Source of the DNA: Bergeyella cardium | Lineage (GTDB): Bacteria; Bacteroidota; Bacteroidia; Flavobacteriales; Weeksellaceae | DNA: 64,000 bases | Assembly (NCBI RefSeq): GCF_003614945.1 | Contig: NZ_QYCZ01000001.1 | Span: forward strand, 80,001 to 144,000 | Reading direction: 5' to 3' | Part shown: in pieces, positions 2,336-29,400 of the stretch | Position numbering within the stretch: the stretch's first letter is position 1 | Layout of the letters: every line of letters begins with the position of its first letter | The notes under the pieces: generated by a model | Databases searched by the model: none | What the model was told of the DNA's origin: nothing | What the model saw: the letters and a program-made list of their open reading frames with translations, nothing else | Translations under genes and position numbers: made by a program

Positions 2336-5300
2336 TTACTGAACGATGAGCTTAGCCGTTTGCTTCTCGCCTTTGTTGTTGGTGAGGTGCAATAGATATA
2401 CTCCTTTCGGATACTGAGTAAGGTTGAGATCTGCTCTGCTACCGCTATACTCCTTCTTGAAGATCAGCTTGCCTGAGAGGTCATACACTTGCGCTTCAAG
2501 GGAAGAAGTACCGCTACCCAGCTCGATGATAAATCTACCATCAGATGGGTTTGGATAGATTTTCAGACCGCCTTTCACCACTTCGGAAGAAGAGAGATCG
2601 GAGATGGTAATGCTTACGCTCACCTTATCAGACTTCTTACCATCGGAGTACACCGCATATACATCGTAGGTATAAGAACCTGTTTGGGTAAGAGTATCGG
2701 TATGCTTCAAGGTATTGATATCAGTGATATCGGTGAGTTTTACATTATTTCTCACGATTTCGTAGCCTTTAAGGGTGGGGAGATTGAGAACGCCCATCTC
2801 GGTAGGCAGCCCTTGAGAATTGACAGTAAGCAGCTCATCAGGCTTAGTATCGAGGATAAGAATATCTTCATTGGCATTGTTCTTCAAATCTGAGATAGGC
2901 ACTGATGCCGACTGCTTTTTATTGGCCAGAGGAGTTTTGTCGGCGCTTACTCTGTCTCTATACCCCACTTGGATGTCGTCTAAAGCAAAGTAGAAACCTT
3001 TATCCTCTTTTTGGGTTCTGTGGTGGAATGCCACAAAGAAGTCCTGAGCGGTGTGTTGCTTAATGTCCACCGTGTTCTGCTTGAAGTCGCCACTTGTATA
3101 GCCTGCATCAAACTTATAGACGATGCTTCCAGTGTTTTTGATTTCATCAATGGTTGGGGCATTACCAGAAGTAGGAGCAGGGACTACATAGACATCATAC
3201 CTCTCTTTGAAGAAGTGCTTCTCGTAGTATTTGAGGACTTCTGCACCGCTCTTGATTTTTGGAGTAATGAGCCAGTCATCCACAGTAATGTCGCCAGTTT
3301 TACCAGAGGAGAAGTTTGCCACACCTTTCTGCCCAGAGTTAGGGTATTTAGTTGTTATTTCCCAGCTATTGCCATCTCTATTGGCATCTATCACTGTGAT
3401 ATCAGCAGGCATATCCAGCTCAAAACCTTCGGTATAAATGGGAGCAATGAGCGGTCTTACCCATTTCAAATCAACCGTATTATTTCGCTGGGTAGCGGTA
3501 AGGTGAGTAACCTTATTCAGCACTTTGGAGATGCTTATTTTCTGCTTCACTGTATTTGCATTATGAGGGGAGGTTGCCTTTAATGATATTGTATAATCTC
3601 CTTCTTTATTGAATTTGAGTATAGGGCTGGAGGAGGTGGTAGAAGTTCCGTTGATAAACTCAGCGTCTTCGCTTGGGCTTACAGTCCATTCAAACTCGGT
3701 AGGAAGAGGGTCTCCTGTGGATTGATTGATGAGTACAATGCCCTCACCTGCGTATGCCCTCGAATTAGAAGGGGTAAATACGGCTTTCGTAGGGGTATTC
3801 TTAATGGTAATAAGTGCTGTTTTTTGTATAGAATCTTCACCTGAAGTATTTTTGGCTTTTAAGGTTACAGAGTACGCTTTCTCTTCTATAAATCTCACTT
3901 TCGGGTGCTCGGAAGTACTAGCAGTACCGTCTTTATACTCTATTGTATTCGGGCTGAATGACCATTCATAAGTGGCAGGCTGCGAAGGAGCATTTGCTGT
4001 TTGGTTTAGTAGCTCTATAGTTTCGTAGGAATTGGCTTTCGTTTTACTCGGTTTGAAGTCTGCATCTGGCTTGCCTTCGGAGCGCCTTACAAGGATGTCA
4101 TCTATACCAATAGCATAGGAGGATTTATCGGCATCTACCTTATTGTGGAAACCGAAATAGATAATCCCGTCTTGAGTTGGAGTAAATTCTCTAATGACTT
4201 GTTGGTACTCCAAATCTTCGGAGGCGATGAGCTTCTCACCGAGCTGATTTGTCATAGAAGTCTTATCTGGCTGTGCTCCATAGAATACTTTGAGGGATTC
4301 TTCTGCATCTTTATTGAGCTTTCGGAGGTAGAATCTCAGTCGGTAGGGCTTGCCACCTTTTACTTTTATTGGGTTGGAGAATAGCCAGTCGTCCGCTCCT
4401 TTAGTACTGTTAGGGAAATTCACTCCAAAGCTCTTGCCTGTTCTTGCTAATTTAATATCTGGATATACTCGCCAGGTTCTTCCGTTTCCATCTGTATCTT
4501 CTACTGTCCAACCGCTCTTTTCTAATTCTTCCTCAAAGCCGTAGGAATAGGATTCTCCTACATTCTCTACCGTTGCAATAATACCGTAGGCTTTTGCAGA
4601 TACAGCGTTGTTTATAGCGACTTCATCACCTGTAAATTCTACTTCTGCCTCTATGCTATAGTTCACAAATGATTTGGATAAATTTACATTGAACGATTTG
4701 CTAAGTGTTGCTCCTTTAGCAATTTCTTCCAATGCTACTTCTCCTGTGTGCTCTACTGCATCAGTATCTGCATTGACGAGTTTGTATTTAAGTTTAGCTC
4801 CTGTTGCAGATGTACTTCCTAAGTTCTCTACCTCTACCGTTACTGGTGTTTGGTCAGTATAGTCCTTCGCTTGTGGCAAGGATACAGATTTTAAGGCTAA
4901 GTCATTTGCAACACCTGTATTAATTCCCGTTGCGATAAGAGAAAAGTCTTGAGAAGTTGCTGGGACGAGTTTTCCATCATTATCATTCTTTCTTAGGCTT
5001 CCTTTATGGCTTACGGTAATAGTGTATTCCTGACCAGCAACTGGGTTTTCTATTACCACTTGCTCTACATTGTCTTTTACATTATTTCCTTTTGTAGCAG
5101 CGTTGGCTGGATTTTCCACATCCAATACCCAAGGGAAGAAAGTGGTTGCTCCATCAGAGATACGGAGGTCTAAGTCATTTACCAAGACAGATTCTCTGTT
5201 GTTTAATACATAATCTGGAAGTTTTTCTACTACGGCATCATCCCAAACAATGGTTACAATAAGTGGAGTATTCCCCAGAGCAGTGAGCTTAAGTGTGTAA

Positions 5301-6715
5301 GGAGTATTGTTATTTAAAGTAGCTTCTTCTACTTTTGAGTACTTGTCTTTTGTTGATAATACCTCTGCGGCTTTATATGCATTGAGAAGCCCCCAACCGA
5401 ATTGATAATCTGGACCAGGGTGCTTACCTGCCTCGTTCGCTGTATGAATTGCCAATGCTTTTAGGGTAGCAGATTTCATAAACGAACGGTACAATTTATT
5501 ATGATGCTCTTGTAATAAGGCAAGAGAGCCCGTTACATTTGGAGACGCCATTGAGGTACCATTTAAAGAGGTGTATTGGTCATCGCCTGTGGAGTTGGTA
5601 GAATATACACCTACACCTATACCTGCTAAATCTGGCTTGATACGACCATCATCGGTAGGACCGAAAGCTGAGAAGCTCGCTGCTTTTACATCACTTGGCT
5701 GTTTGTAACCTCCCGGTATTTTATGGGCTGCTGCGATAATGAGTCCATTTTTACTCGTTCCTCCGTTGGCAATACAATCAAAGCCACTTGCACCTCCGTT
5801 CTTTTGTCGGGTTTTGGTAGAGCGAACCCAAACGATGCGCTGATTTTCTTTCCTTCTTACATAATGAACTCCGCCAGGCTCTGGCCCGCCTCCTCTTGGG
5901 TTACCTGCTGCTTTTAGGAAGAGGTAGTACGGAGCGTTTCTCGAAATCAAGTCCCATTTTGCGTCTTTTTCTCCATAATGACCATAGCCTATGAATTCGG
6001 TTTCATCTTCCTCACCGAACCAGTGCCAGCCTGTAAATCCTGACCAGTTGCCTTGCTGATAGCCCGCTGTAGTACCATAGGAATGGTTAGAGAGAAGGGC
6101 TCCATTAGTTGCAGCGTCTGACATTTCTTTAGAATCATCCGTCCAATCATAGGCAATAAGCTCTGCTTTTGGAGCCATTCCTTTGGCTTGCTTATCTATA
6201 CCGCTGGCGATCATCGTACCCGCCACATGGGTAGAGTGGCTATTAGGGAATTTAGAGGAATCTCCCATTTTAGCTCTTCCACCAAACTCTTGATGGGAAA
6301 TTCTCACCGCTCCCGCATCCCACTCGCGAAGGGTAATACCATCTCCTTGGAGGTTAAACGCAGGGCTGTTTTGCAGGATGCTGGTGTAGACAGATTCGGC
6401 AGCCCCTACATTATCTGTTATATAATAGAAGGGCAGTCCATTATGATTGAAGCCTTGTAGCTGATACAGCTTGCCATCCACTTCCCCTGTGAAAGGGATA
6501 TTGAGCTCTTTTGCTTTGGATTGAAGCCTTGCCGTGCTCATCTCTTCTTTTTGAATACGGCTACTGAGCTGGCTGAGGGCTTTTAGATCGGTTTTGCCTT
6601 GAATGGCTCTTATTTCCTCTGCATTCTGAGCGAATACTGCTGAAGCAAATAAGTAGCAGAGTGCTATGGGTAAGTTTCGTGCAAGCACTCCTACTTTAAA
6701 TATAGATTTAGTCAT
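2336..6715 (-). CDS. Secreted S8 subtilase with PKD and adhesin domains, T9SS cargo
   Basis: Predicted 1459-residue secreted serine protease. A signal peptide (residues 1-29, cut near VFAQ/NA) is followed by a propeptide-like stretch and an S8 subtilisin domain (~110-460) with catalytic D133 (EWDAG), H160 (NSHSTHVAGT), oxyanion N272 (AAGNP) and S388 (NGTSMASP). After it come a jelly-roll/P-like domain (~470-590), a CARDB-like segment, a MAM/cleaved-adhesin-like domain (around GFEEELEKSGW and DDWLFSNP), two PKD-like domains, a second adhesin-like domain (DDWLITPKI), an Fn3-like segment and a type A T9SS sorting domain (KIYPNPSDGRF to the terminal AKLIVQ). It is therefore expected to cross the outer membrane by T9SS and be anchored or released. 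A paralogue lies inverted at 12807-17183. The native substrate cannot be told from sequence. Confidence 0.93.
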   Translation of the reverse strand: MTKSIFKVGVLARNLPIALCYLFASAVFAQNAEEIRAIQGKTDLKALSQLSSRIQKEEMSTARLQSKAKELNIPFTGEVDGKLYQLQGFNHNGLPFYYITDNVGAAESVYTSILQNSPAFNLQGDGITLREWDAGAVRISHQEFGGRAKMGDSSKFPNSHSTHVAGTMIASGIDKQAKGMAPKAELIAYDWTDDSKEMSDAATNGALLSNHSYGTTAGYQQGNWSGFTGWHWFGEEDETEFIGYGHYGEKDAKWDLISRNAPYYLFLKAAGNPRGGGPEPGGVHYVRRKENQRIVWVRSTKTRQKNGGASGFDCIANGGTSKNGLIIAAAHKIPGGYKQPSDVKAASFSAFGPTDDGRIKPDLAGIGVGVYSTNSTGDDQYTSLNGTSMASPNVTGSLALLQEHHNKLYRSFMKSATLKALAIHTANEAGKHPGPDYQFGWGLLNAYKAAEVLSTKDKYSKVEEATLNNNTPYTLKLTALGNTPLIVTIVWDDAVVEKLPDYVLNNRESVLVNDLDLRISDGATTFFPWVLDVENPANAATKGNNVKDNVEQVVIENPVAGQEYTITVSHKGSLRKNDNDGKLVPATSQDFSLIATGINTGVANDLALKSVSLPQAKDYTDQTPVTVEVENLGSTSATGAKLKYKLVNADTDAVEHTGEVALEEIAKGATLSKSFNVNLSKSFVNYSIEAEVEFTGDEVAINNAVSAKAYGIIATVENVGESYSYGFEEELEKSGWTVEDTDGNGRTWRVYPDIKLARTGKSFGVNFPNSTKGADDWLFSNPIKVKGGKPYRLRFYLRKLNKDAEESLKVFYGAQPDKTSMTNQLGEKLIASEDLEYQQVIREFTPTQDGIIYFGFHNKVDADKSSYAIGIDDILVRRSEGKPDADFKPSKTKANSYETIELLNQTANAPSQPATYEWSFSPNTIEYKDGTASTSEHPKVRFIEEKAYSVTLKAKNTSGEDSIQKTALITIKNTPTKAVFTPSNSRAYAGEGIVLINQSTGDPLPTEFEWTVSPSEDAEFINGTSTTSSSPILKFNKEGDYTISLKATSPHNANTVKQKISISKVLNKVTHLTATQRNNTVDLKWVRPLIAPIYTEGFELDMPADITVIDANRDGNSWEITTKYPNSGQKGVANFSSGKTGDITVDDWLITPKIKSGAEVLKYYEKHFFKERYDVYVVPAPTSGNAPTIDEIKNTGSIVYKFDAGYTSGDFKQNTVDIKQHTAQDFFVAFHHRTQKEDKGFYFALDDIQVGYRDRVSADKTPLANKKQSASVPISDLKNNANEDILILDTKPDELLTVNSQGLPTEMGVLNLPTLKGYEIVRNNVKLTDITDINTLKHTDTLTQTGSYTYDVYAVYSDGKKSDKVSVSITISDLSSSEVVKGGLKIYPNPSDGRFIIELGSGTSSLEAQVYDLSGKLIFKKEYSGSRADLNLTQYPKGVYLLHLTNNKGEKQTAKLIVQ

Positions 6716-12403: not shown

Positions 12404-12772
12404 CTTTAGAATTAATAGCTCAAGTCTGTTTTTGGTAATTTCAAAACTGTGTTTATACTGAAAAAAGTGCTTTTCTAAGCAGAAAATACAAATAAATTTT
12501 TATAATTTATAATGGCGATATTTTTATAATATCATAAAGATTGACAATGTGATTGAGGTATAAATATCACAATTTAACACTTATTTGAATGAATATTTAT
12601 TGTTATATGGCTAATATAATGTATATAATTAAAAAATATCATCTATGAATTTTGTATATAATTAAAATGTATGTGTTTTGTGGTATAATTAATTTTATTG
12701 CATAAAATAATCGTTAATTGTATTAAAAATTTATTAAAATAAATAAAATTTTGTAGTATTAAAAATATTGTG
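12404..12772. other. Long AT-rich intergenic region upstream of subtilase 2
   Basis: About 370 bases, strongly AT-rich, with short inverted repeats (for example GATATT..AATATC near 12513-12534) and many TATAATTA-like stretches. No credible reading frame. It should hold a birA terminator and the upstream control region of the second subtilase gene; the direct repeat GTAGTATT near its right end may be part of the promoter. Confidence 0.4.
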
Positions 12773-12780
12773 TAGTATTG
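12773..12780 (+). promoter_or_regulatory. Candidate -7 element of subtilase gene 2
   Basis: TAGTATTG, one base off TAnnTTTG, 26 bases before the ATG at 12807. The element and the following leader (CAGTT..ATTTTAAAT..AATAATGA) match the leader of the inverted paralogue (6716-6750). Confidence 0.45.
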
Positions 12781-12806
12781 TCCAGTTAATTTTAAATGAA
12801 TTAATA

Positions 12807-15800
12807 ATGAGAAAGTCTACATTAGAGTTCGGGTCATTTACCCGAAAATTGCCAGTAGCATTATGTTACTTATTTGCTACGGCAGTGTTTGCACAGAATG
12901 CCCAAGAGGTAAAGGTTCTTCAAAGCAAGACGAACCTAAAAGGATTGAATTTATTAGGCAAGCAATTCCGCAAAGGAACGCTAAGCAGAGCGCAGCTGGA
13001 GTCCAGAGCAAAGGAGATGAACATTCCGTTCACCACCGAGTTTGGAGGTAAGTTTTACCAGTTGCAAGGTTTTAACGCTAAGGGCTTCCCTTTGTACTAT
13101 GTAACGAGCAATGCTGGAGCAGCAGAAGGTACGGGAGTTACAAGGCTTCAGACGAGCCCAGGATTGGAACTTCAAGGAGAAGGTATTGTTCTCCGTGAGT
13201 GGGATGGAGGAGCTGTAAGGCTTACCCACCAGGAATTTGGAGGAAGAGCCAAAATGGGTGATACCTCTACACGGCTTAATAGCCACTCTACCCATGTGGC
13301 GGGGACAATGGTTGCCAGTGGAGTAGATAAGAAAGCGAAAGGAATGGCACCAAAAGCAGAGCTTATCGCCTATGACTGGAATGATGATGAGGATGAAATG
13401 ACAACAGCTGCAACTAACGGGGCACTTCTTTCAAATCACTCTTATGGTTATTTAGGAGGTTTTGAGTATGGTAACTGGTCAGGAGCTACAGGTTGGCACT
13501 GGTTAGGAACTGATGATGATACAGAATATGTAGGCTATGGACATTATGGAGAAACGGATGCTCAATGGGATTTAATCTCAAAAAATGCTCCTTATTACTT
13601 GGCGGTAAAAGCAGCAGGTAACCCAAGAGGAGATGGTCCTGAACCTGGTGGAGCACACTATGTAAGAAAATTAGAGAATGGTAAATTAGTATGGGCAAAA
13701 TCTACAAAAGTTCGCCAAAAGAATGGGGGAGCCAATGGTTTTGATTGTATTAACCACGGAGCAACGGGTAAGAATGGGCTTATTATCGCAGCGGCTCATA
13801 AAATCCCAGGTGGCTACAAACAGCCAAGTGATGTAAAAGCAGCGAGTTTCTCAGCTTTCGGTCCTACCGATGATGGTCGTATCAAGCCAGATTTAGCAGG
13901 TATAGGTGTAGGTGTATATTCTACAACATCAACAGGTGATGACCAATATACCTCTTTGAGCGGTACCTCAATGGCGTCTCCAAATGTAACGGGCTCTCTT
14001 GCCTTATTACAAGAGCATCATAATAAATTGTACCGTTCGTTTATGAAATCTGCCACTCTAAAAGCATTGGCAATTCATACAGCGAACGAGGCAGGTGAGC
14101 ATCCTGGTCCAGATTATCAATTCGGTTGGGGACTTCTCAATGCCTTTAAAGCTGCAGAAGTATTATCCACCAAAGATAAATACTCAAAAGTAGAAGAGGT
14201 TACCTTAAATAATAATGGCACTTATACCCTAAAACTCACGGCAACAGGAAGTGCACCATTAGTTGTAACCATTGTTTGGGATGATGCCGTAGTAGAAAAA
14301 CTTCCAGATGCTACGCTTAACAACAGAGAATCCGTATTGGTAAATGACTTGGATTTACGAGTATCCGATGGAGCAACCACTTTCTTCCCTTGGAAATTAG
14401 ATGTAAATAATCCAGCGAACGCTGCTACCAAAGGCGATAATACCAAAGACAATGTAGAGCAGGTAGTGATAGAAAACCCGGTAGCAGGCAAGGAATATAC
14501 CATCACCGTAAGCCATAAGGGTGACCTGAAAAAGAACGATGACCAGGGTAAATTAGTTCCTGCAGCTTCTCAAGACTTCTCTCTTATTGCAACGGGAATT
14601 AACAATGGTGTATCAAAAGACTTGGCATTAAAATCCGTATCCTTACCACCAGCTAAGGAGTATACAAACCAAACGCCAGTAACGGTAGAGGTAGAGAACT
14701 TAGGAAGTGCATCTGCAACAGGAGCTAAACTTAAATACAAACTCGTAAATGTAGACAATGGTAATGCCGTAGAGCATACAGGAGAAGTAGCATTAGAAGA
14801 AGTAGCACAAGGAAAGACGCTTAGCAAGTCGTTTAATGTAGATTTATCCAAATCTTTTGTGAATTACAATATAGAGGTAGAAGTAGAATTAGCAGGAGAT
14901 GAGGTAGCAATGAACAACACCGCTTCTACAAGTGCATACGGTATAGTAGCCTCTGTATTAGAAGATGGGGATAAACACGCCGTTGGTTTCGAAGAAGAGA
15001 GTTTAGAGAAAATCGGTTGGACTGTGAAAGATGTAGATGGAAAAGGAAGAACCTGGATGAAGTATACAGATGCAGACTTAGCAAATACAGGAAAGAGCTT
15101 TGCGGTGAACTTCCCTAATAGAACAAAAGGTACAGACGACTGGTTATTCTCCAACCCTATCAAGGTGAAAGCAGGTAAGCTCTATATGCTGGAGCTCTAC
15201 GCAGGTAGATTCCAGAATGATGAAGAAAATCTTGAATTCTTCTATGGTGATAGCCCGGAAGTATCAGCAATGACCAATAAGTTAGGAGATAAATTAACCC
15301 TTGCTCCAAGTTATAATAAAGTAAATAGAGAATTTACTCCTACAAAAGATGGCGTCATTTATTTAGGCTTCCACAATAAGATGGACGCCGATAAGGCCTC
15401 TTATGCTGTAGCAGTAGATGATGTATTGGTAAGATTTGCAGAAGGGAAACCATCAGCAGACTTTACAGTGGCTAAACCAAGAGTTAATTCTTATGAGACA
15501 GTTCAGCTTAATAATAATACAACAACTGCCTCTACTCAGCCAGCGACTTATGAATGGTCATTCAGCCCGAATACAGTAGAGTATAAAGACGGTACAACAA
15601 GCACATCTAAAGATCCGAAAGTAAGATTTACAGAAGAGAAACAGTATTCAGTAACATTGAAGGCAACGAATTCTTCAGGTAATGATGTTAAGGAGAAAAA
15701 AGACTTTATCACTGTTAAGAATACTCCATCTCAAGCTAAATTTATCACTTCAGGAAATTCAATCTTTGAAACTGAAACGGTAGCATTTACTAATAAATCT

Positions 15801-17183
15801 ACTGGTGATCCGCTTCCTACATCATTTGAATGGACGGTAACGCCAAGTGATAATACAGAATTTGTAAGTGGTACTACTTCTACATCTAATAACCCAGTAG
15901 TTAAGTTTAATAAATCCGGAGACTATAAAGTTTCCCTAAAAGCAACTTCTCCACAAAACGAAACCACTGCTGAGGTAGATATAAAAGTAGCAGGAGTACA
16001 TAATTCCGTGAAAGATCTTTCAGCTACTCAAGAGAATAACAAGGTAAATCTCAAGTGGGTAAGACCTAATATGAACCCTTCCTATACCGAAGGATTTGAA
16101 TCCGGAAAAATACCTACCGAGATGACAGTCTATGACAATAATGCAGATAAAATGAGCTGGATGATTTCTGCTTTTAATAAAGCAAGTGGAAATTATGGAC
16201 TACTCAATTATGGTTGGTACTTCAGAAGTATGGATGTAGATGACTGGATCGTAACTCCTAAAATAAAAGGAGGAGCAGAAGTGCTTAAATATTTTGTGAA
16301 ACACGACTATGTAGAAAGATATGATGTGTATGTAGTGAAAGCACCAGCTTCTGGTAAAGCACCAACGATAGATGAAATCAAAGCAACAGGTGAAATTGTT
16401 TACAAGTTTGATGGAACTGAAAAAACTAAAGGTACATTTGTTGAAAGAGAAGTTGATATCAAAGAACACTCTAAGGATGACTTCTTCGTAGTGTTCCACC
16501 ACAGAACTACAAAAGATGATGACGCTCTTCTCCTTGCATTAGATGATATCCAAATAGGATATAAAGATAATGTAAGCTCTGATAAGACAGTAGCTGCAAA
16601 ACCATCTGATGAAGCATCTGTTGACTTGAAGCAAGTAGTAAGAGAAGGTACTAAGATTCTGAAATCTGGTGATTTTGAAGATCCATACAAAGCAGAAGCA
16701 CGAGAGCAAGTGCCAGTAGAGTTTGGAGCTACAGACCTTCCTAAACTTGAGAAGTATGAGATTGTGAGAAACAATGTGAAGCTCACCGATATCAATGACT
16801 ATAACACATTGAAACACACAGATAATCTTACACAGACTGGTACTTATACCTACGATGTATACGCTGTGTACTCTGATGGTAAGAAGTCTGATAAGGCAAG
16901 TGTAACGATTGTTGTAGATAACCTTTCTGCTTCAGAGGTAGTGAAAGGTGGTCTGAAAATCTATCCAAACCCATCTGATGGTAGATTTACTATCGAGCTT
17001 GGTAGTGGAACTTCTTCAGTTCAAGCACAGGTTTATGACCTTTCAGGTAAGCTACTCTTCAAGAAGGATTATAGCGGCAGTAGGGCTGATCTCGACCTTA
17101 CTCAGTATCCGAAAGGAGTATATCTATTGCACCTCACCAATAACAAAGGCGAGAAGCAAACGGCTAAGCTCATCGTTCAGTAA
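12807..17183 (+). CDS. Secreted S8 subtilase with PKD and adhesin domains, T9SS cargo (paralogue)
   Basis: A 1458-residue paralogue of the 2336-6715 gene with the same architecture: signal peptide (cut near VFAQ/NA), S8 domain with catalytic D143, H170 (NSHSTHVAGT) and S398 (SGTSMASP), P-like domain, CARDB-like segment, cleaved-adhesin-like domain, two PKD-like domains, second adhesin-like domain, Fn3-like segment, and a T9SS type A sorting domain almost identical to that of the paralogue (KIYPNPSDGRF..AKLIVQ). I chose the ATG at 12807 (MRKSTLEFGSF) because it aligns with the paralogue's start; the upstream ATG at 12768 would overlap the -7 element and add 13 residues ahead of the signal peptide. 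The protease domain and the last ~110 residues are most alike; the middle adhesin region is most diverged. Expected at the cell surface or released. Confidence 0.93.
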   Translation: MRKSTLEFGSFTRKLPVALCYLFATAVFAQNAQEVKVLQSKTNLKGLNLLGKQFRKGTLSRAQLESRAKEMNIPFTTEFGGKFYQLQGFNAKGFPLYYVTSNAGAAEGTGVTRLQTSPGLELQGEGIVLREWDGGAVRLTHQEFGGRAKMGDTSTRLNSHSTHVAGTMVASGVDKKAKGMAPKAELIAYDWNDDEDEMTTAATNGALLSNHSYGYLGGFEYGNWSGATGWHWLGTDDDTEYVGYGHYGETDAQWDLISKNAPYYLAVKAAGNPRGDGPEPGGAHYVRKLENGKLVWAKSTKVRQKNGGANGFDCINHGATGKNGLIIAAAHKIPGGYKQPSDVKAASFSAFGPTDDGRIKPDLAGIGVGVYSTTSTGDDQYTSLSGTSMASPNVTGSLALLQEHHNKLYRSFMKSATLKALAIHTANEAGEHPGPDYQFGWGLLNAFKAAEVLSTKDKYSKVEEVTLNNNGTYTLKLTATGSAPLVVTIVWDDAVVEKLPDATLNNRESVLVNDLDLRVSDGATTFFPWKLDVNNPANAATKGDNTKDNVEQVVIENPVAGKEYTITVSHKGDLKKNDDQGKLVPAASQDFSLIATGINNGVSKDLALKSVSLPPAKEYTNQTPVTVEVENLGSASATGAKLKYKLVNVDNGNAVEHTGEVALEEVAQGKTLSKSFNVDLSKSFVNYNIEVEVELAGDEVAMNNTASTSAYGIVASVLEDGDKHAVGFEEESLEKIGWTVKDVDGKGRTWMKYTDADLANTGKSFAVNFPNRTKGTDDWLFSNPIKVKAGKLYMLELYAGRFQNDEENLEFFYGDSPEVSAMTNKLGDKLTLAPSYNKVNREFTPTKDGVIYLGFHNKMDADKASYAVAVDDVLVRFAEGKPSADFTVAKPRVNSYETVQLNNNTTTASTQPATYEWSFSPNTVEYKDGTTSTSKDPKVRFTEEKQYSVTLKATNSSGNDVKEKKDFITVKNTPSQAKFITSGNSIFETETVAFTNKSTGDPLPTSFEWTVTPSDNTEFVSGTTSTSNNPVVKFNKSGDYKVSLKATSPQNETTAEVDIKVAGVHNSVKDLSATQENNKVNLKWVRPNMNPSYTEGFESGKIPTEMTVYDNNADKMSWMISAFNKASGNYGLLNYGWYFRSMDVDDWIVTPKIKGGAEVLKYFVKHDYVERYDVYVVKAPASGKAPTIDEIKATGEIVYKFDGTEKTKGTFVEREVDIKEHSKDDFFVVFHHRTTKDDDALLLALDDIQIGYKDNVSSDKTVAAKPSDEASVDLKQVVREGTKILKSGDFEDPYKAEAREQVPVEFGATDLPKLEKYEIVRNNVKLTDINDYNTLKHTDNLTQTGTYTYDVYAVYSDGKKSDKASVTIVVDNLSASEVVKGGLKIYPNPSDGRFTIELGSGTSSVQAQVYDLSGKLLFKKDYSGSRADLDLTQYPKGVYLLHLTNNKGEKQTAKLIVQ

Positions 17184-23699: not shown

Positions 23700-23771
23700 G
23701 GCCCGTTCGTCTATCGGTTAGGACTCAAGATTTTCATTCTTGCAAGAGGGGTTCGATTCCCCTACGGGCTA
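23700..23771 (+). tRNA. tRNA-Glu (anticodon UUC)
   Basis: Acceptor arms GGCCCGT / ACGGGCT (first pair G-U), D-arm around TCGGTTAGGAC, anticodon arm CAAGA-TTTTCAT-TCTTG giving anticodon TTC, T-arm GGGG-TTCGATT-CCCC, discriminator A. CCA is not encoded. Confidence 0.95.
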
Positions 23772-23774
23772 CAA

Positions 23775-23805
23775 AAGGAGAAACTTATTTAAGTTTCTCC
23801 TTTTT
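23775..23805. terminator. Bidirectional terminator after tRNA-Glu / apbE
   Basis: GGAGAAACTT (23778-23787) pairs with AAGTTTCTCC (23791-23800), with T-run on the plus strand (TTTTTGTTTT) and T-rich on the minus strand. It ends both the rpsT-tRNA transcript and the opposing apbE operon. Confidence 0.85.
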
Positions 23806-23823: not shown

Positions 23824-24789
23824 CTATTGGTCAAATCCAGTACTTTGAGTAATATTACCATTATCCTCTATGATAAGATATTGATAGCTGGGAAATTTTT
23901 TAAGGAGGCGGAGCCCTTTTTCTTTGCCCAGAACCATTACGGAGGTGCTGAGCCCATTGGCAGTTTCTGCATTTTCTCCTGTGATGGTTACACTGGTGAG
24001 CCCTGTGGAGGGATAACCTGTTTTAGGATTGATGATATGGGAATAGCGTTTGCCACCAAATTCTACAAATTTTTGGTAATCCCCAGAGGTTACGATAGCT
24101 GTGTTTCGGAGTTTTAGAACTTTGAGGACTTCACCAGACTGGAAAGGGTCAGCAATACCTACTGTCCAAGCACTACCATTGGGTTGAGTTCCCCAGAGGG
24201 CAATATCCCCAGAGGCATTAATGATGCCAGCCTGTACGCCAAGTTGCTGCATTAGGGCTTTGGTCTTATCGGCGGAGTAGCTCTTTCCTGTAGCTCCAAA
24301 ACCTATTTTCATCCCTTTATTTTTTAGGAAAATGGTAGATTTTTTTCGGTTGATAATAATATTTTTATAGCCCACATTTCTTATTGAGGCTTTCACCTGT
24401 TGAGGAGTGGGTGGAGTATCCATAGAATCATCAAACCGCCAGATTTTATCCATTGCAGCGATACTAATATCAAATGCTCCATCTGTAATTTTGGAGAACC
24501 AAAGTGCCCTTTCAGTAAGTTTGATAACTTCTGGGCTCACTTTTACTGGGCGAATTCCTGCATTTTTATTCACCTCTGAAATCTCTGTGGAGGCTCGCCA
24601 TTCCGAGATGAGGTTTTCTATTCGAGAGATTTCGGCAATGGCAATATTTATTTTCTCCTCTGCAGCGGTAGAGTCTTTATCTACGATGGTAATATCAAAC
24701 CTGCTGCCCATTAGTATTACGGTTCTGTGCCTTGCGGTTTGGGCATAGGTGATTTGCAGGGCGAGTAAAAAGATAGCGAGGGTCTTCAT
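23824..24789 (-). CDS. apbE: FAD:protein FMN transferase, exported
   Basis: Uses FAD to attach FMN covalently to a Ser/Thr of extracytoplasmic target proteins. 321 residues with an N-terminal signal peptide (residues 1-16, ITYA/Q), HRTVILMGSRFDI near the start, the flavin-binding Gly-rich segment (GFGATGKSYSADKT), and the family blocks SGDYQKF, YSHIINPKTGYP and NGLSTSVMVLG. In Escherichia coli-type ApbE the metal site lies in the last blocks. It begins 3 bases after the stop of the PepSY reductase gene and is the last gene of the operon; a DUF2271 protein in the same operon carries a TGAS motif and is a candidate target. Confidence 0.93.
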   Translation of the reverse strand: MKTLAIFLLALQITYAQTARHRTVILMGSRFDITIVDKDSTAAEEKINIAIAEISRIENLISEWRASTEISEVNKNAGIRPVKVSPEVIKLTERALWFSKITDGAFDISIAAMDKIWRFDDSMDTPPTPQQVKASIRNVGYKNIIINRKKSTIFLKNKGMKIGFGATGKSYSADKTKALMQQLGVQAGIINASGDIALWGTQPNGSAWTVGIADPFQSGEVLKVLKLRNTAIVTSGDYQKFVEFGGKRYSHIINPKTGYPSTGLTSVTITGENAETANGLSTSVMVLGKEKGLRLLKKFPSYQYLIIEDNGNITQSTGFDQ

Positions 24790-24792
24790 TAT

Positions 24793-27000
24793 TTAATAGC
24801 AATCACTTAGAATTCTGGAATTGTGTTTATATCTTTCAAGGCTTGGGAGCTGATGCCTTTCGCAGACTTCAGTGAGGTAGGCTTCTACATCGGCGAGCAT
24901 AGAAAGCGCTCCACAAATCATAATAACACCATCGGATTTCAGGATTTGAACCAAAAATTCTTCATCTTCACGGATGAGGTCGGTTACCCGCTGAGGCTTT
25001 TCACCTCGAGAATATCCAACGGTGAAGCTATGCAAGTTTCCTTTTTGGATGAGGCTTTTTGCCGTTTCTTCTATCTGTTGAGTATTTGCATTTCTAAATC
25101 TAAAGCCGCAGTAGAGATGTTTCTTTACACCTGGATGTTGCTCACTCATCATTCCGAGGAAAGGTGCAGTACCTGTACCATTAGCAATCATCACTACATC
25201 GCTTGTGTCTTCTGGGAAGTGGAAGGCAAGGTTCTCTACCACTTTTGCTTTTATGGTTTGCCCCAGTGGTAATCTATACAAATACTGAGAGCCGAGCCCA
25301 TTTTCGTGTAGCTTTACGAAGAGCTGAATGCTATTGCCCTTTTTTCCGATGGAGTAGAGCCTTTCTCTGCTGTCGTTTGCAGGATATACAGTGAGAATAT
25401 CTCCAGATTGGAATGCTCTCTTGCGGAATTGAGGCTTAAGGGAGATGGAGAAGGTTTGATTATCTTCATCAAGAGGGGTTTTCTCCACTACTTTGAATTT
25501 TTTAAGTCCAGAAATCTTAGCATTATAGAATGAAGGAGAGGTCATCAGTGGGGTAGAGGTCTTTTCATTCCAGAGCTTCACCCATTCTACGAGTTCATCG
25601 GCAGATTTATCATTCACCAAATGTAGGGGGATACTTCTTTCTGCCCATTCTTGTGAGGAGAGGAGAGCATCTATCTTTTTAGCAAATCCACAGAAGTTGG
25701 AGTATGTTCTCGAACCGAAGCCCACAACAGAAAACAGGGTATTGGGGTTTTGCTTAATGTCGTTAGCGAGTAAAGTCTCAAATTTTTCAGCATTGGCAGG
25801 GGCATCTCCATCACCATAAGTGGAGGTGAAGATAAGGATGTGCTCCGCTTTTGGGAAATACTGATAGTTATTAAGATATGAGAGAAAGACTTTTTTGCCA
25901 CTTGTGAGGAGCTGCTGTTGCACTTTATTGGCAAAGCCTAATGTAGTTCCGTTTTCTGAACCTACGAGGATAATGCAGTCTGCATCTTGGGCTTTGAACT
26001 TATTCTTCACCTTGGACGCGGTTCTTTTTAGGGTGATAGCAAAGCCTGTGTAGATAAATACAAGAATGTTAAGCGTAGCAATTGCCAACACGATTGCCCA
26101 CCAGAGATTGGTTCGCCCCGTATGTAAGTTCAGGCTGAGATTGGCTAAAAGTACAGCGGAGGGATAGAGGGTTTCCTTAGTGATTTCACCAGAAAAAGCA
26201 TTTACTTCTAATTCTTTGGACTTTAATTTTAATATAAAGACCTCGTCTGGGTCGTCATCTGAGAAGGGAAATTCTATTTTTTGTACCTCGCTGAGCTTGG
26301 TCTGCCTGAAAACTTCAAAATCGGCGATGTTTTTTTGTGTATCGGTGTGTTTTGCTTCATAGGTTTGGGTGATTTCTTTTTGTTCGGGGATGATTTTAAA
26401 CCTTTTCAGAAATAAATAAGTCCCCGTAAGCGATACTACGAAGATGGGAACTAAGAACCACCTCCCCGCTGAGGTGTGTAGGAATTGCGAGAGCGAGTCT
26501 TTGTGTATTTTAGCAAAGAAACCGAAGAATCCTTTTTGTCTTTTGATAATCATTATGGTGCCTGTAAGGCTAATCATCAGGAGGAGAGCTGCCATTATCC
26601 CTACTATAAATCGTCCTTTTTCGTGGAGAAGAAGCGAGCGGTGAATCCCTTTTACTTCCTGTATAAATGGGCTTTTTTTAAGGGGCTTGCCAAGTATTTT
26701 CCCATTGTTTGGGTTGATGATGGCTTTTACTGCATTGCCGTCTTCATCAAAACCATCGATGCTTACGAAATGGTTAGGATCTATGCTCATCTCTGTAATC
26801 TCAGGGTAGTTTTTTTTGAGTACAGGCAGCGTTTTGGCAAGGCTAAGCTCTTCAAAATTCTCTACTTTATAAGGGTATTGGGTTTTATTGATAATGATAT
26901 TCCCCGCTAAAATAACGCCTGTAATTGAGATCACGAGTAAGAATACCGACGAAATAATCGCAAGGATAAGGTGTGCTTTTCTCCAGATGGATGATGTCAT
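24793..27000 (-). CDS. PepSY transmembrane / flavodoxin / FAD-NADPH reductase fusion
   Basis: 735 residues that should carry electrons from cytosolic NAD(P)H into or across the inner membrane. Residues 1-325 form a PepSY_TM region with membrane helices at about 10-32, 132-152, 180-200 and 297-322 and histidines near them (H9, H120, H126, H175, H293) that could bind haem. Residues 340-480 are flavodoxin-like (SENGTTLGFANKV, TSTYGDGDAP). Residues 490-735 are an NADPH-cytochrome reductase/CysJ-like FAD domain (RLYSIGKKG; NGTGTAPFLGMM at ~607-618; CGFRFRN) ending in the SDCY tail. Similar fusions are annotated as ferric or sulfite reductases, but the acceptor here is unknown. Its ATG overlaps the stop of an upstream mini-ORF (ATGA) and apbE starts 3 bases after its end. 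Confidence 0.88.
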   Translation of the reverse strand: MTSSIWRKAHLILAIISSVFLLVISITGVILAGNIIINKTQYPYKVENFEELSLAKTLPVLKKNYPEITEMSIDPNHFVSIDGFDEDGNAVKAIINPNNGKILGKPLKKSPFIQEVKGIHRSLLLHEKGRFIVGIMAALLLMISLTGTIMIIKRQKGFFGFFAKIHKDSLSQFLHTSAGRWFLVPIFVVSLTGTYLFLKRFKIIPEQKEITQTYEAKHTDTQKNIADFEVFRQTKLSEVQKIEFPFSDDDPDEVFILKLKSKELEVNAFSGEITKETLYPSAVLLANLSLNLHTGRTNLWWAIVLAIATLNILVFIYTGFAITLKRTASKVKNKFKAQDADCIILVGSENGTTLGFANKVQQQLLTSGKKVFLSYLNNYQYFPKAEHILIFTSTYGDGDAPANAEKFETLLANDIKQNPNTLFSVVGFGSRTYSNFCGFAKKIDALLSSQEWAERSIPLHLVNDKSADELVEWVKLWNEKTSTPLMTSPSFYNAKISGLKKFKVVEKTPLDEDNQTFSISLKPQFRKRAFQSGDILTVYPANDSRERLYSIGKKGNSIQLFVKLHENGLGSQYLYRLPLGQTIKAKVVENLAFHFPEDTSDVVMIANGTGTAPFLGMMSEQHPGVKKHLYCGFRFRNANTQQIEETAKSLIQKGNLHSFTVGYSRGEKPQRVTDLIREDEEFLVQILKSDGVIMICGALSMLADVEAYLTEVCERHQLPSLERYKHNSRILSDCY

Positions 27001-27074
27001 TTTATTTTTTTAATAGATAATAATGCGTGTATAAATAGAAAAATCAGGGAGAAGACTTTTTTGGATGATTTCAT
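26997..27074 (-). CDS. 25-residue hydrophobic mini-protein candidate
   Basis: ATG at 27074-27072 opens a 25-codon frame: MKSSKKVFSLIFLFIHALLS followed by IKKIK. Two positive ends flank a ~15-residue hydrophobic core, as in a single-pass membrane peptide or an uncleaved signal. Its TGA overlaps the ATG of the PepSY reductase (ATGA), the classic layout for translational coupling, and it lies 49 bases after the DUF2271 stop. It may be a real subunit, a leader peptide for coupling, or chance; there is no homology evidence. Confidence 0.4.
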   Translation of the reverse strand: MKSSKKVFSLIFLFIHALLSIKKIK

Positions 27075-27123
27075 CGCTGGTGCAATCTCCCCGATTGGTA
27101 GGTGGGTGCCTTTTGTATGGTGG

Positions 27124-27606
27124 TTAGAGTTTGTTCAGTTTTACGGTACGCACATAGCCTTTGCCGCTTACTTTTTTAGAAAAATCAGCTTGAGTAAGGG
27201 GGATTACAGCGTCTTCCGTATGGTATTTTGCGTGTTCTACGGCAGATTCTATCCTGAGTTTATAGCCTTTATCAAAGACAGAATCATCTATATTGAGAAC
27301 GGTAGTGCTCCTATCGCCTGCACCTACGGAAGCCCCCGTAATCGCACTGAGCTGCTCGGGTTTTTGGTTCTGAGCTTTAAACCACTCTTTGAGCCCTTTG
27401 TACCATTTCTTATTATCTCCCATTACGGCGAGGGTTTTTTCGTATTCTCCATTAGGATTGATGAGAGAGACTACGAGGTAAGCATTTTCTCCATCGTAAT
27501 TGGTCATTTGGAGCATTAGTTTGTACTTGCTGCTCTGTGCCTGTGCTTGAATGCTAAACAAGAGCGCAAAAAATCCGAATAAAAAACTTTGTTTTAAAAA
27601 TCTCAT
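27124..27606 (-). CDS. Exported DUF2271 protein, candidate flavinylation target
   Basis: 160 residues: signal peptide (1-23, QAQA/QS), then a DUF2271-type domain with NAYLVVSLINPNGEYEKTL, W69, and AITGASVGAGDRS (88-100). T90-G-A-S93 resembles the Dxx(S/T)GA(T/S) motif that ApbE modifies, with Ser at the usual Asp position (S87). DUF2271 proteins often lie beside PepSY-membrane proteins and ApbE, as here. I infer a periplasmic flavoprotein or redox partner of the PepSY reductase; modification is unproved. 30 bases separate it from the ankyrin gene upstream. Confidence 0.8.
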   Translation of the reverse strand: MRFLKQSFLFGFFALLFSIQAQAQSSKYKLMLQMTNYDGENAYLVVSLINPNGEYEKTLAVMGDNKKWYKGLKEWFKAQNQKPEQLSAITGASVGAGDRSTTVLNIDDSVFDKGYKLRIESAVEHAKYHTEDAVIPLTQADFSKKVSGKGYVRTVKLNKL

Positions 27607-27636
27607 AAAAATTTAATTTATAATTATTGATTCAAT

Positions 27637-29130
27637 TTATTTTAAAAAGCTGAGGTCTATATTCTGATGAGTGAGGGCTTCATTATCCTTAGCGATGTCA
27701 TAAGCCGTTTCGTCTAGGTCTGTTTTAATTTTTTTATCAGCCCCAAGCGAGATGAGGTATTTCAGAATCTGATCATCCTTTGCCACTAATGCTGCCTTGT
27801 GCAGTGCGGTGAGCCCATCATTATTCTTCGCATTAATATCTGCTTTTATAGGCGAAAGGCTTCGGATGAAGTCCAAGTTATTCTTAGCCGCTGCGATATG
27901 ATAAACCGTGCTCCCATCTCTGAAGGGCTGGGCAAAATTAAGACCTTTTTCTTGTAGGAGGAGGAGCTTCGGAAGGAAATCTTTATCGGCTTGCCTACCT
28001 TTTTTTGGTACTCGGAACGAATCCACGAGCACAAAAGCAAGGCTATTCCCCTTCGCATCAGTAGTGCGGAGGCTTGCACCCTTTTGGAGGAGGAAATTTA
28101 CGATTTCTGTGCTCCCCGTTTTTACGGCATTCAGTAGGGCGGTCTCTCCATTCGCATTTTTAGCATTGATGTCTCGGCAATAAGGGAAAAGCTGTTTCAC
28201 GATGCTAAGACTTTTACCACCGCAGACCAGCATAAAGGCGGTGTTTCCGTTTTTATCTTTTCGTGAGGCATCTGCTCCGCTTGATAAAAGGTAGTTGATC
28301 ACTTCCTCCTGCTTAGGCTTCCTCGCTACGATGTGGAGCAAGGTCTCTCCTTGTGCATTCGTGATTTTGGGGTCTAATTTCAGCTCACCGATAAGGTAGA
28401 GGTAGGGCTGCACACCATTCGTTACCTTATGTGCCCCTTCGGCTACGGCGAGCAGGGCAGAGGAGTCGTATTTTACCCCTCGTTTTACGAGCGTTCTCAG
28501 GTTTTCTACATTATCACCGACCAATGCCGCGTAGTAGAATGCACCTCGCCCCTTTTTGTCCTCTACTTGGAGGCTAAGCCCTTTGGAGATGAGCTCATCG
28601 GTTATTTTGAGCCCCTTATCCTGTCCAATGCAGAGCAGAAGCAGATCGGCATCCTCAAGCTGCGGGTATTTTTGGCGGATATCAAACCTATTTTTAATAT
28701 AAAGTTCTAATATTTCTGGGGTAATATTCCCACCTCTACAAGCATAAACTAAGGGATTTGCCCCTTTATCATCTAAGGCATTCAGGTTGGCTCCTTTTTT
28801 TATCAGGTGCTTTACTACCTCGTAGAGTTTAGCATTGGTTGCCCAGTGCAGGTAAGTTCTCTCATGGAAGAATTTCTTTTCTATATCCACCCCTTTTTGG
28901 TCAGTGAGGTATTTGATGACCTCTGGGCTTGCTTTCGCCATTATAGCCGCAAAAATAGGGTCGCTCGCGCCTTCGGTATTTTTAAAGTCAAAGCCTTTGC
29001 GCACCTCTTTCTTTACTTCTTTTAGGCTTGGTGCGCCTTCCCAGAATTTAGCCTCCGAAAGAGGAGATTTTTGCTGGGCAGAAATCAGCATCCCAGCGCA
29101 AAAGAATGATGAAATGATGAACTTTTTCAT
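27637..29130 (-). CDS. Exported ankyrin-repeat protein
   Basis: 497 residues: signal peptide (about 1-18, LISA/QQ), then about ten ankyrin repeats from residue ~45 to the end, recognisable by TYLHWATNAKLYEVVKHLIK, NGETALLNAVKTGSTEIVNF, and GLTALHKAALVAKDDQILKY. There is no other domain, so it is probably a periplasmic scaffold. First gene of the operon with DUF2271, PepSY reductase and ApbE; a role in organising that redox system is inference from context only. -7 box TATATTTG at 29156-29163. Confidence 0.88.
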   Translation of the reverse strand: MKKFIISSFFCAGMLISAQQKSPLSEAKFWEGAPSLKEVKKEVRKGFDFKNTEGASDPIFAAIMAKASPEVIKYLTDQKGVDIEKKFFHERTYLHWATNAKLYEVVKHLIKKGANLNALDDKGANPLVYACRGGNITPEILELYIKNRFDIRQKYPQLEDADLLLLCIGQDKGLKITDELISKGLSLQVEDKKGRGAFYYAALVGDNVENLRTLVKRGVKYDSSALLAVAEGAHKVTNGVQPYLYLIGELKLDPKITNAQGETLLHIVARKPKQEEVINYLLSSGADASRKDKNGNTAFMLVCGGKSLSIVKQLFPYCRDINAKNANGETALLNAVKTGSTEIVNFLLQKGASLRTTDAKGNSLAFVLVDSFRVPKKGRQADKDFLPKLLLLQEKGLNFAQPFRDGSTVYHIAAAKNNLDFIRSLSPIKADINAKNNDGLTALHKAALVAKDDQILKYLISLGADKKIKTDLDETAYDIAKDNEALTHQNIDLSFLK

Positions 29131-29155
29131 AAAGCGGTATTTTATATTTTGCTTG

Positions 29156-29163
29156 CAAATATA
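29156..29163 (-). promoter_or_regulatory. -7 element of the ankyrin-DUF2271-PepSY-apbE operon
   Basis: Minus strand TATATTTG, perfect TAnnTTTG, 25 bases upstream of the ankyrin gene ATG. No clear -33 box; no Fur-like palindrome recognised nearby. Confidence 0.6.
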
Positions 29164-29400
29164 GAGAACAAAAACCTGATAAGTGCCATTTATTTATAGA
29201 TGGTCTTAATTAAAATTTCTGAATAATGAATTGAATAGATTGGAATGTCCTCTTTGCAAAACAATCCTTTGGATAAGGAGAAGAGAGAATAGTTAAAATG
29301 CTACAGCTTCGAGCTATTGAATGTGTCTAATTATCCATAGAATGCATATCATTAATAAGTGGGGTAGATCAACTAAGTAGTGGGATTGGTATAAAAATAC

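Follow-up and report, generated by a model that had tools for sequence, protein, structure and literature searches.

What does a gene for an exported ankyrin-repeat protein do at the head of a putative electron-transfer operon, and where would the electrons of that operon go? ORF calls and Pfam delimit a single minus-strand operon of four ORFs at positions 23824-29130 of the window (the whole 64-kb stretch of DNA analysed here; Table 1), with intergenic gaps of 30, 123 and 3 bp, in a Bergeyella cardium genome of 1.96 Mb on 3 contigs. All Pfam matches were far over the curated cut-offs (ApbE 1e-82, PepSY_TM 5e-34, DUF2271 4e-36, ankyrin repeats 6e-45), and the fusion protein also matched Flavodoxin_1, FAD_binding_6 and NAD_binding_1. 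An earlier note on this DNA had described a single four-gene minus-strand operon with signal peptides on the exported proteins; the ORFs lie where it put them, Pfam agrees with the families it named, and inspection of the sequences is consistent with the signal peptides. The operon is flanked in the window by a small ribosomal-protein-like ORF, a tRNA-Glu gene and unrelated housekeeping genes. Upstream of it, TATATTTG resembles the flavobacterial -7 element (consensus TAnnTTTG).

Table 1. Features of the operon and its borders (positions in the window), with lipoprotein genes near the operons of relatives (positions in the respective loci).
Feature	Position	Strand	Remarks
Exported ankyrin-repeat protein	27637..29130	-	497 aa; ~14 helix pairs fill the whole mature chain; Pfam Ank_2 etc.
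DUF2271 exported protein	27124..27606	-	160 aa; predicted FMN acceptor Ser93 in SAITGAS; Pfam PF10029, 3.9e-36
PepSY_TM-flavodoxin-FAD/NAD(P) reductase fusion	24793..27000	-	735 aa; Pfam and CPR/CysJ/NOS homology
Exported FAD:protein FMN transferase ApbE	23824..24789	-	321 aa; Ser235 and His251 kept, Asn278; Pfam 1.4e-82
14-bp hairpin with T-run, likely terminator	23773..23804	.	between operon and tRNA-Glu gene
tRNA-Glu gene	23700-23772		beyond hairpin at operon end
Promoter region, predicted	29131..29180	-	TATATTTG, sequence read directly from the DNA
Family c7 lipoproteins (examples)	L034:737-2068; L051:6977-8329; L068:8106-9446		six more

We think it likely that this operon encodes a PepSY-like flavinylation system that acts as a transmembrane reductase of ferric iron, probably in the form of ferrisiderophores, and is equipped with an ankyrin scaffold. 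On the cytosolic side, the FAD/NAD domain of the fusion would oxidise NADPH and hand the electrons, via the FMN of the flavodoxin, to two hemes on four membrane histidines; from these they would reach a covalent FMN that ApbE would attach to Ser93 of the periplasmic DUF2271 protein. Flavinylated DUF2271 would reduce Fe(III), freeing the iron for uptake as Fe(II), and in a Bacteroidota version of the system the ankyrin protein may be an obligate periplasmic scaffold that keeps DUF2271, perhaps with the arriving chelate as well, at the reductase.

The fusion consists of a PepSY_TM di-heme membrane domain (residues 1-326), a flavodoxin (344-476) and an FAD-/NAD(P)-binding reductase (502-706), and its C-terminal half is homologous to cytochrome P450 reductase, CysJ and NOS reductases. 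Searched against the PDB as a single sequence, the PepSY part gave no match; with a 28-sequence profile, the membrane half matched the siderophore reductase FoxB (PDB 7abw, E 1e-5), its sole confident PDB relative. Four histidines (H10, H120, H175 and H293) are invariant in 49/49 sequences of the fusion (PepSYred) and co-align with those of FoxB, which binds two hemes through such histidines, two per heme (PMC13038864; PMC11334425). Judged from this sequence pattern, the same four residues of the PepSY domain are predicted to hold transmembrane hemes, on which the earlier note was silent. The host protein shares the four heme-ligand histidines and PepSY-TM similarity with FoxB and the related HiuB and FsrB, but differs in being fused to an electron-supplying flavodoxin/NADPH reductase and in having a predicted flavinylated partner. 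Between DUF2271 and PepSY lies a hydrophobic ORF of 25 codons (26997-27074, minus strand), the stop of which overlaps the PepSY start codon (ATGA); it had no convincing counterpart in the 11 relatives tested.

The PepSY-like flavinylation class was published in 2021 by Méheust et al., who proposed iron reduction (PMC8238504). The class is defined operationally by a PepSY_TM gene (PF03929) that forms part of a flavinylation-associated cluster, which is the arrangement found here: PepSY_TM, a DUF2271 substrate and ApbE are clustered, and an NAD-binding reductase is fused as in a subset of the class (PF00175-type domains occur in a subset of 1077 in the survey, and Pfam finds PF00175 in the host fusion). 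An accessory DUF4198, which is not obligatory (1500/3220 clusters; PMC8238504), is absent from the host operon, unlike many of the published clusters. In contrast to the published system, host-type loci are always preceded by an exported ankyrin gene, carry an ApbE with Asn in place of Asp, and mostly have a target motif that lacks its Asp. Ankyrin goes unmentioned in the main texts of the 2021 paper and its 2024 follow-up (PMC11334425), no paper linking ankyrin to DUF2271 was found in the main texts of the open-access literature searched, and papers pairing 'ankyrin' with 'PepSY' or 'ApbE' look unrelated from their titles and abstracts. The ankyrin partner and the Asn-type ApbE with its altered motif appear to be unreported lineage features of this class.

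Within the family, the ankyrin gene and DUF2271 go together. At thresholds of E<=1e-3 for DUF2271 and E<=1e-20 for a full-length ankyrin ortholog, both were found in the identical 47 of 197 family genomes and neither in the other 150. The two genes were adjacent in every family case, and the ankyrin gene was directly upstream in 27/27 intact Bacteroidota DUF2271-PepSYred loci, one of them on a plasmid of Spirosoma, which belongs to another class of the phylum. It was absent from six proteobacterial plasmid loci (five with full-length fusions, one with a truncated PepSY gene), and the four Bacteroidota loci in which ApbE is fused to DUF2271 (L102, L104, L110 and L113) had neither ankyrin nor PepSYred. 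Pairwise distances of the ankyrin protein correlate with those of DUF2271 (0.87), PepSYred (0.88) and ApbE (0.70), with shared ancestry contributing to all three values. Bacteroidota operons of this type have the ankyrin protein as an obligate partner. On proteobacterial plasmids (L117, L118 and L120-L122), DUF2271-PepSY adjoins a two-component system and a soluble PepSY protein, in some cases also a VIT1/CCC1 transporter.

The AlphaFold2 model of the ankyrin protein (pLDDT 89.5, below 50 only in the signal peptide at residues 1-20) is a solenoid over the whole mature protein with no extra domain, and the Foldseek matches listed were ankyrin-repeat proteins and DARPins. A solenoid made up of repeats alone, as predicted here, would serve for docking or binding rather than catalysis; on the basis of this model, a docking scaffold is the most likely role. 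The order Ank-DUF2271-PepSYred-ApbE was kept in the 49 DUF2271-carrying relatives, the exceptions being one ApbE-less locus and two cases at contig edges; among the relatives bearing the operon are Flavobacterium taihuense, F. antarcticum and Chryseobacterium sp. Leaf180. The earlier note had let its proposal of electron transfer from NADPH to an extracytosolic flavin depend on such conservation, and the conserved order supports this proposal as the best reading of the locus.

DUF2271 has been demonstrated as an ApbE substrate, flavinylated at a TGAS-type motif, in Amantichitinum (PMC8238504). The host protein has TGAS at residues 90-93, in agreement with [S/T]GA[S/T]. The ApbE-like target motif named by the earlier note is present as SAITGAS (residues 87-93); its core is kept, but in the first position Ser replaces the Asp of D-x-x-[S/T]-G-A-[S/T]. 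This opening Asp is strictly conserved in the canonical motif, and its replacement alone is reported to have minor effects. Searches of the host genome found one ApbE, one PepSY_TM and one DUF2271 protein and no FMN_bind or DUF3570 proteins, making DUF2271 the only ApbE target among the tested classes, and we infer that it carries a covalent flavin in the host organism. A PDB fold search with DUF2271 returned nothing at E<=0.001 (model pLDDT 72; weak C2-like matches), so no function is claimed from its fold.

The motif varies with ApbE across relatives. TGAS is kept in 68/68 operons with a local ApbE. Several ApbE-less operons retain TGAT, and those of their genomes that were checked encode other ApbEs. 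In two loci without a local ApbE (L048 and L091), the motif has degraded to GET, as it also reads in the stand-alone DUF2271 of L107. L048 and L091 keep Ank-DUF2271-PepSYred with neither motif nor local ApbE, which suggests that the flavin is dispensable in some loci. The first motif position is Asp in 12/68 operons with an Asn-type ApbE (Asn in 29, Ser in 26 and Ala in 1, i.e. 56/68 without Asp) and in 11/12 other motif-bearing loci, an association (Fisher p 1e-6) that is descriptive only, as it ignores relatedness.

The host ApbE belongs to the same family as the solved ApbE/FmnB flavin transferases (PDB 7esa, 1vrm, 4ifu, 6nxi) and, aligned to them, keeps the Ser (Ser235) and His (His251) of the Asp-Ser-His triad, but it has Asn278 at the Mg-binding catalytic Asp. 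Solved ApbEs have Asp at the Mg site (T. pallidum D284, FmnB D301, V. cholerae D285), and this residue is named together with Ser and His as a conserved residue of the catalytic centre (PMC12052999, PMC8906456, PMC5655446). Asn occupies the site in 68/68 operon ApbEs (47/47 in the family and 21/21 in the phylum). ApbEs encoded elsewhere have Asp there (17/17), and these include second copies from two genomes that carry both kinds; two proteobacterial operon ApbEs that were read have Asp. The four Bacteroidota ApbE-DUF2271 fusions have Gly at the aligned position (DAGALAT).

With the catalytic Asp gone, flavin transfer by the host ApbE is not guaranteed. Alternatively, the altered enzyme may be inactive as a flavin transferase, or may instead hydrolyse FAD or carry flavin, leaving DUF2271 unflavinylated in the clade and the di-heme reductase, DUF2271 and the ankyrin protein to work without covalent flavin. 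The uniform Asn is consistent with such a loss, as are L048 and L091 and the greatly reduced or abolished activity of FmnB when its Mg ligands are changed to Ala (PMC8906456). However, TGAS is kept wherever the Asn-type ApbE is kept and lost in some loci without it, which makes this alternative unlikely in our view. Furthermore, Ser235 and His251 persist, and Asn is still able to ligate Mg. Returning to a flavinylated DUF2271, we suggest tentatively that Bacteroidota evolved their own version of the system, in which an obligate 14-repeat ankyrin solenoid may dock the flavinylated protein, and perhaps a ferrisiderophore, onto the membrane cytochrome, and in which a dedicated ApbE subfamily with Asn for the catalytic Asp, together with loss of the motif-initial Asp, may form a re-tuned enzyme-substrate pair.

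The final electron acceptor, for which the earlier note gave several candidates, is most likely ferric iron or a ferrisiderophore. In Riemerella anatipestifer CH-1, B739_0173-0177 (in order, a CirA receptor, a hypothetical protein, 'Ankyrin', 'Predicted periplasmic protein' and 'Nitric oxide synthase') all rise when iron is limiting (tabulated values 1.0-3.6; PMC5429918), and the match of this series to family loci L067-L069 is one of annotated gene order rather than of sequence. In 14/49 family loci, the operon has a TonB receptor no more than three ORFs upstream, and two of three neighbouring receptors scanned passed the siderophore-receptor cut-off. In genus g16, the operon is preceded by a receptor and DUF4374 proteins (cluster c9) that match XusB crystal structures (E 3e-23). 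This arrangement recalls the XusABC xenosiderophore system of Bacteroides, which comprises a receptor, a lipoprotein and a PepSY inner-membrane reductase, but the description of XusC, a PepSY protein of the inner membrane, does not include the host's partner set (PMC13142918). PepSY-like systems in other organisms are Fur-regulated or iron-responsive, and in Caulobacter, Fur targets the PepSY-like locus, which is needed under EDTA.

It counts against iron that the 64-kb window has no iron gene next to the operon; TonB receptors and XusB-type lipoproteins are likewise missing beside it and are seen in relatives only. An AT-rich palindrome, TTTAGAATnATTnTAAAT, is a candidate operator in the 190 bases preceding the ankyrin gene in relatives (L034, L041, L043-L046, L054 and others); it is strongly enriched, with at most two mismatches in 31/50 cases versus 0.6 expected, the motif having been picked from the same, related sequences. 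It is missing upstream of the host operon, where the best match has 5 mismatches, which also counts against iron, and it is not over-represented in the host genome (57 versus 63 in the control). The text of an Elizabethkingia iron transcriptome names none of the operon genes. A lipoprotein family of ~447 aa (c7; Table 1) lies beside a TonB receptor near the operon in nine loci. As its members had no significant Pfam match and no PDB profile match tying them to XusB, only cluster c9 is called XusB-like.

The same electron chain could instead end on copper or another periplasmic redox partner. PepSY_TM functions are diverse (Bordetella CrpH, under copper control, supports heme-copper oxidase function; PMC13038864), and the two-component systems beside the proteobacterial plasmid relatives, joined in one case by a heavy-metal exporter, would suit copper. 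We nevertheless find a non-iron acceptor quite improbable, given the iron-limitation response of the operon-matching Riemerella genes, the siderophore type of the neighbouring receptors and, in one genus, the neighbours resembling XusB. Links between exported ankyrin proteins and catalases exist in other systems, but periplasmic oxidant repair or peroxide protection, with the ankyrin protein protecting or partnering a redox enzyme as in those pairs, is very improbable here, as only the four operon families are constant among the family loci and the links to iron are stronger.

Ferric reduction by a scaffolded, flavinylated DUF2271 would give the iron-limitation genes of Bacteroidota a defined path for electrons, and supply a function-linked partner for an uncharacterised exported ankyrin family spread through a large phylum. 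The ApbE subfamily, in departing from the accepted Asp-Ser-His triad, makes the roles of the triad Asp and the motif Asp directly testable.

Elsewhere in the window, two long and similar S8-like serine protease genes lie in opposite orientation ~6 kb apart (2336-6715, minus strand; 12768-17183, plus strand), and both have a C-terminal stretch that, by inspection, resembles a type IX secretion sorting domain.
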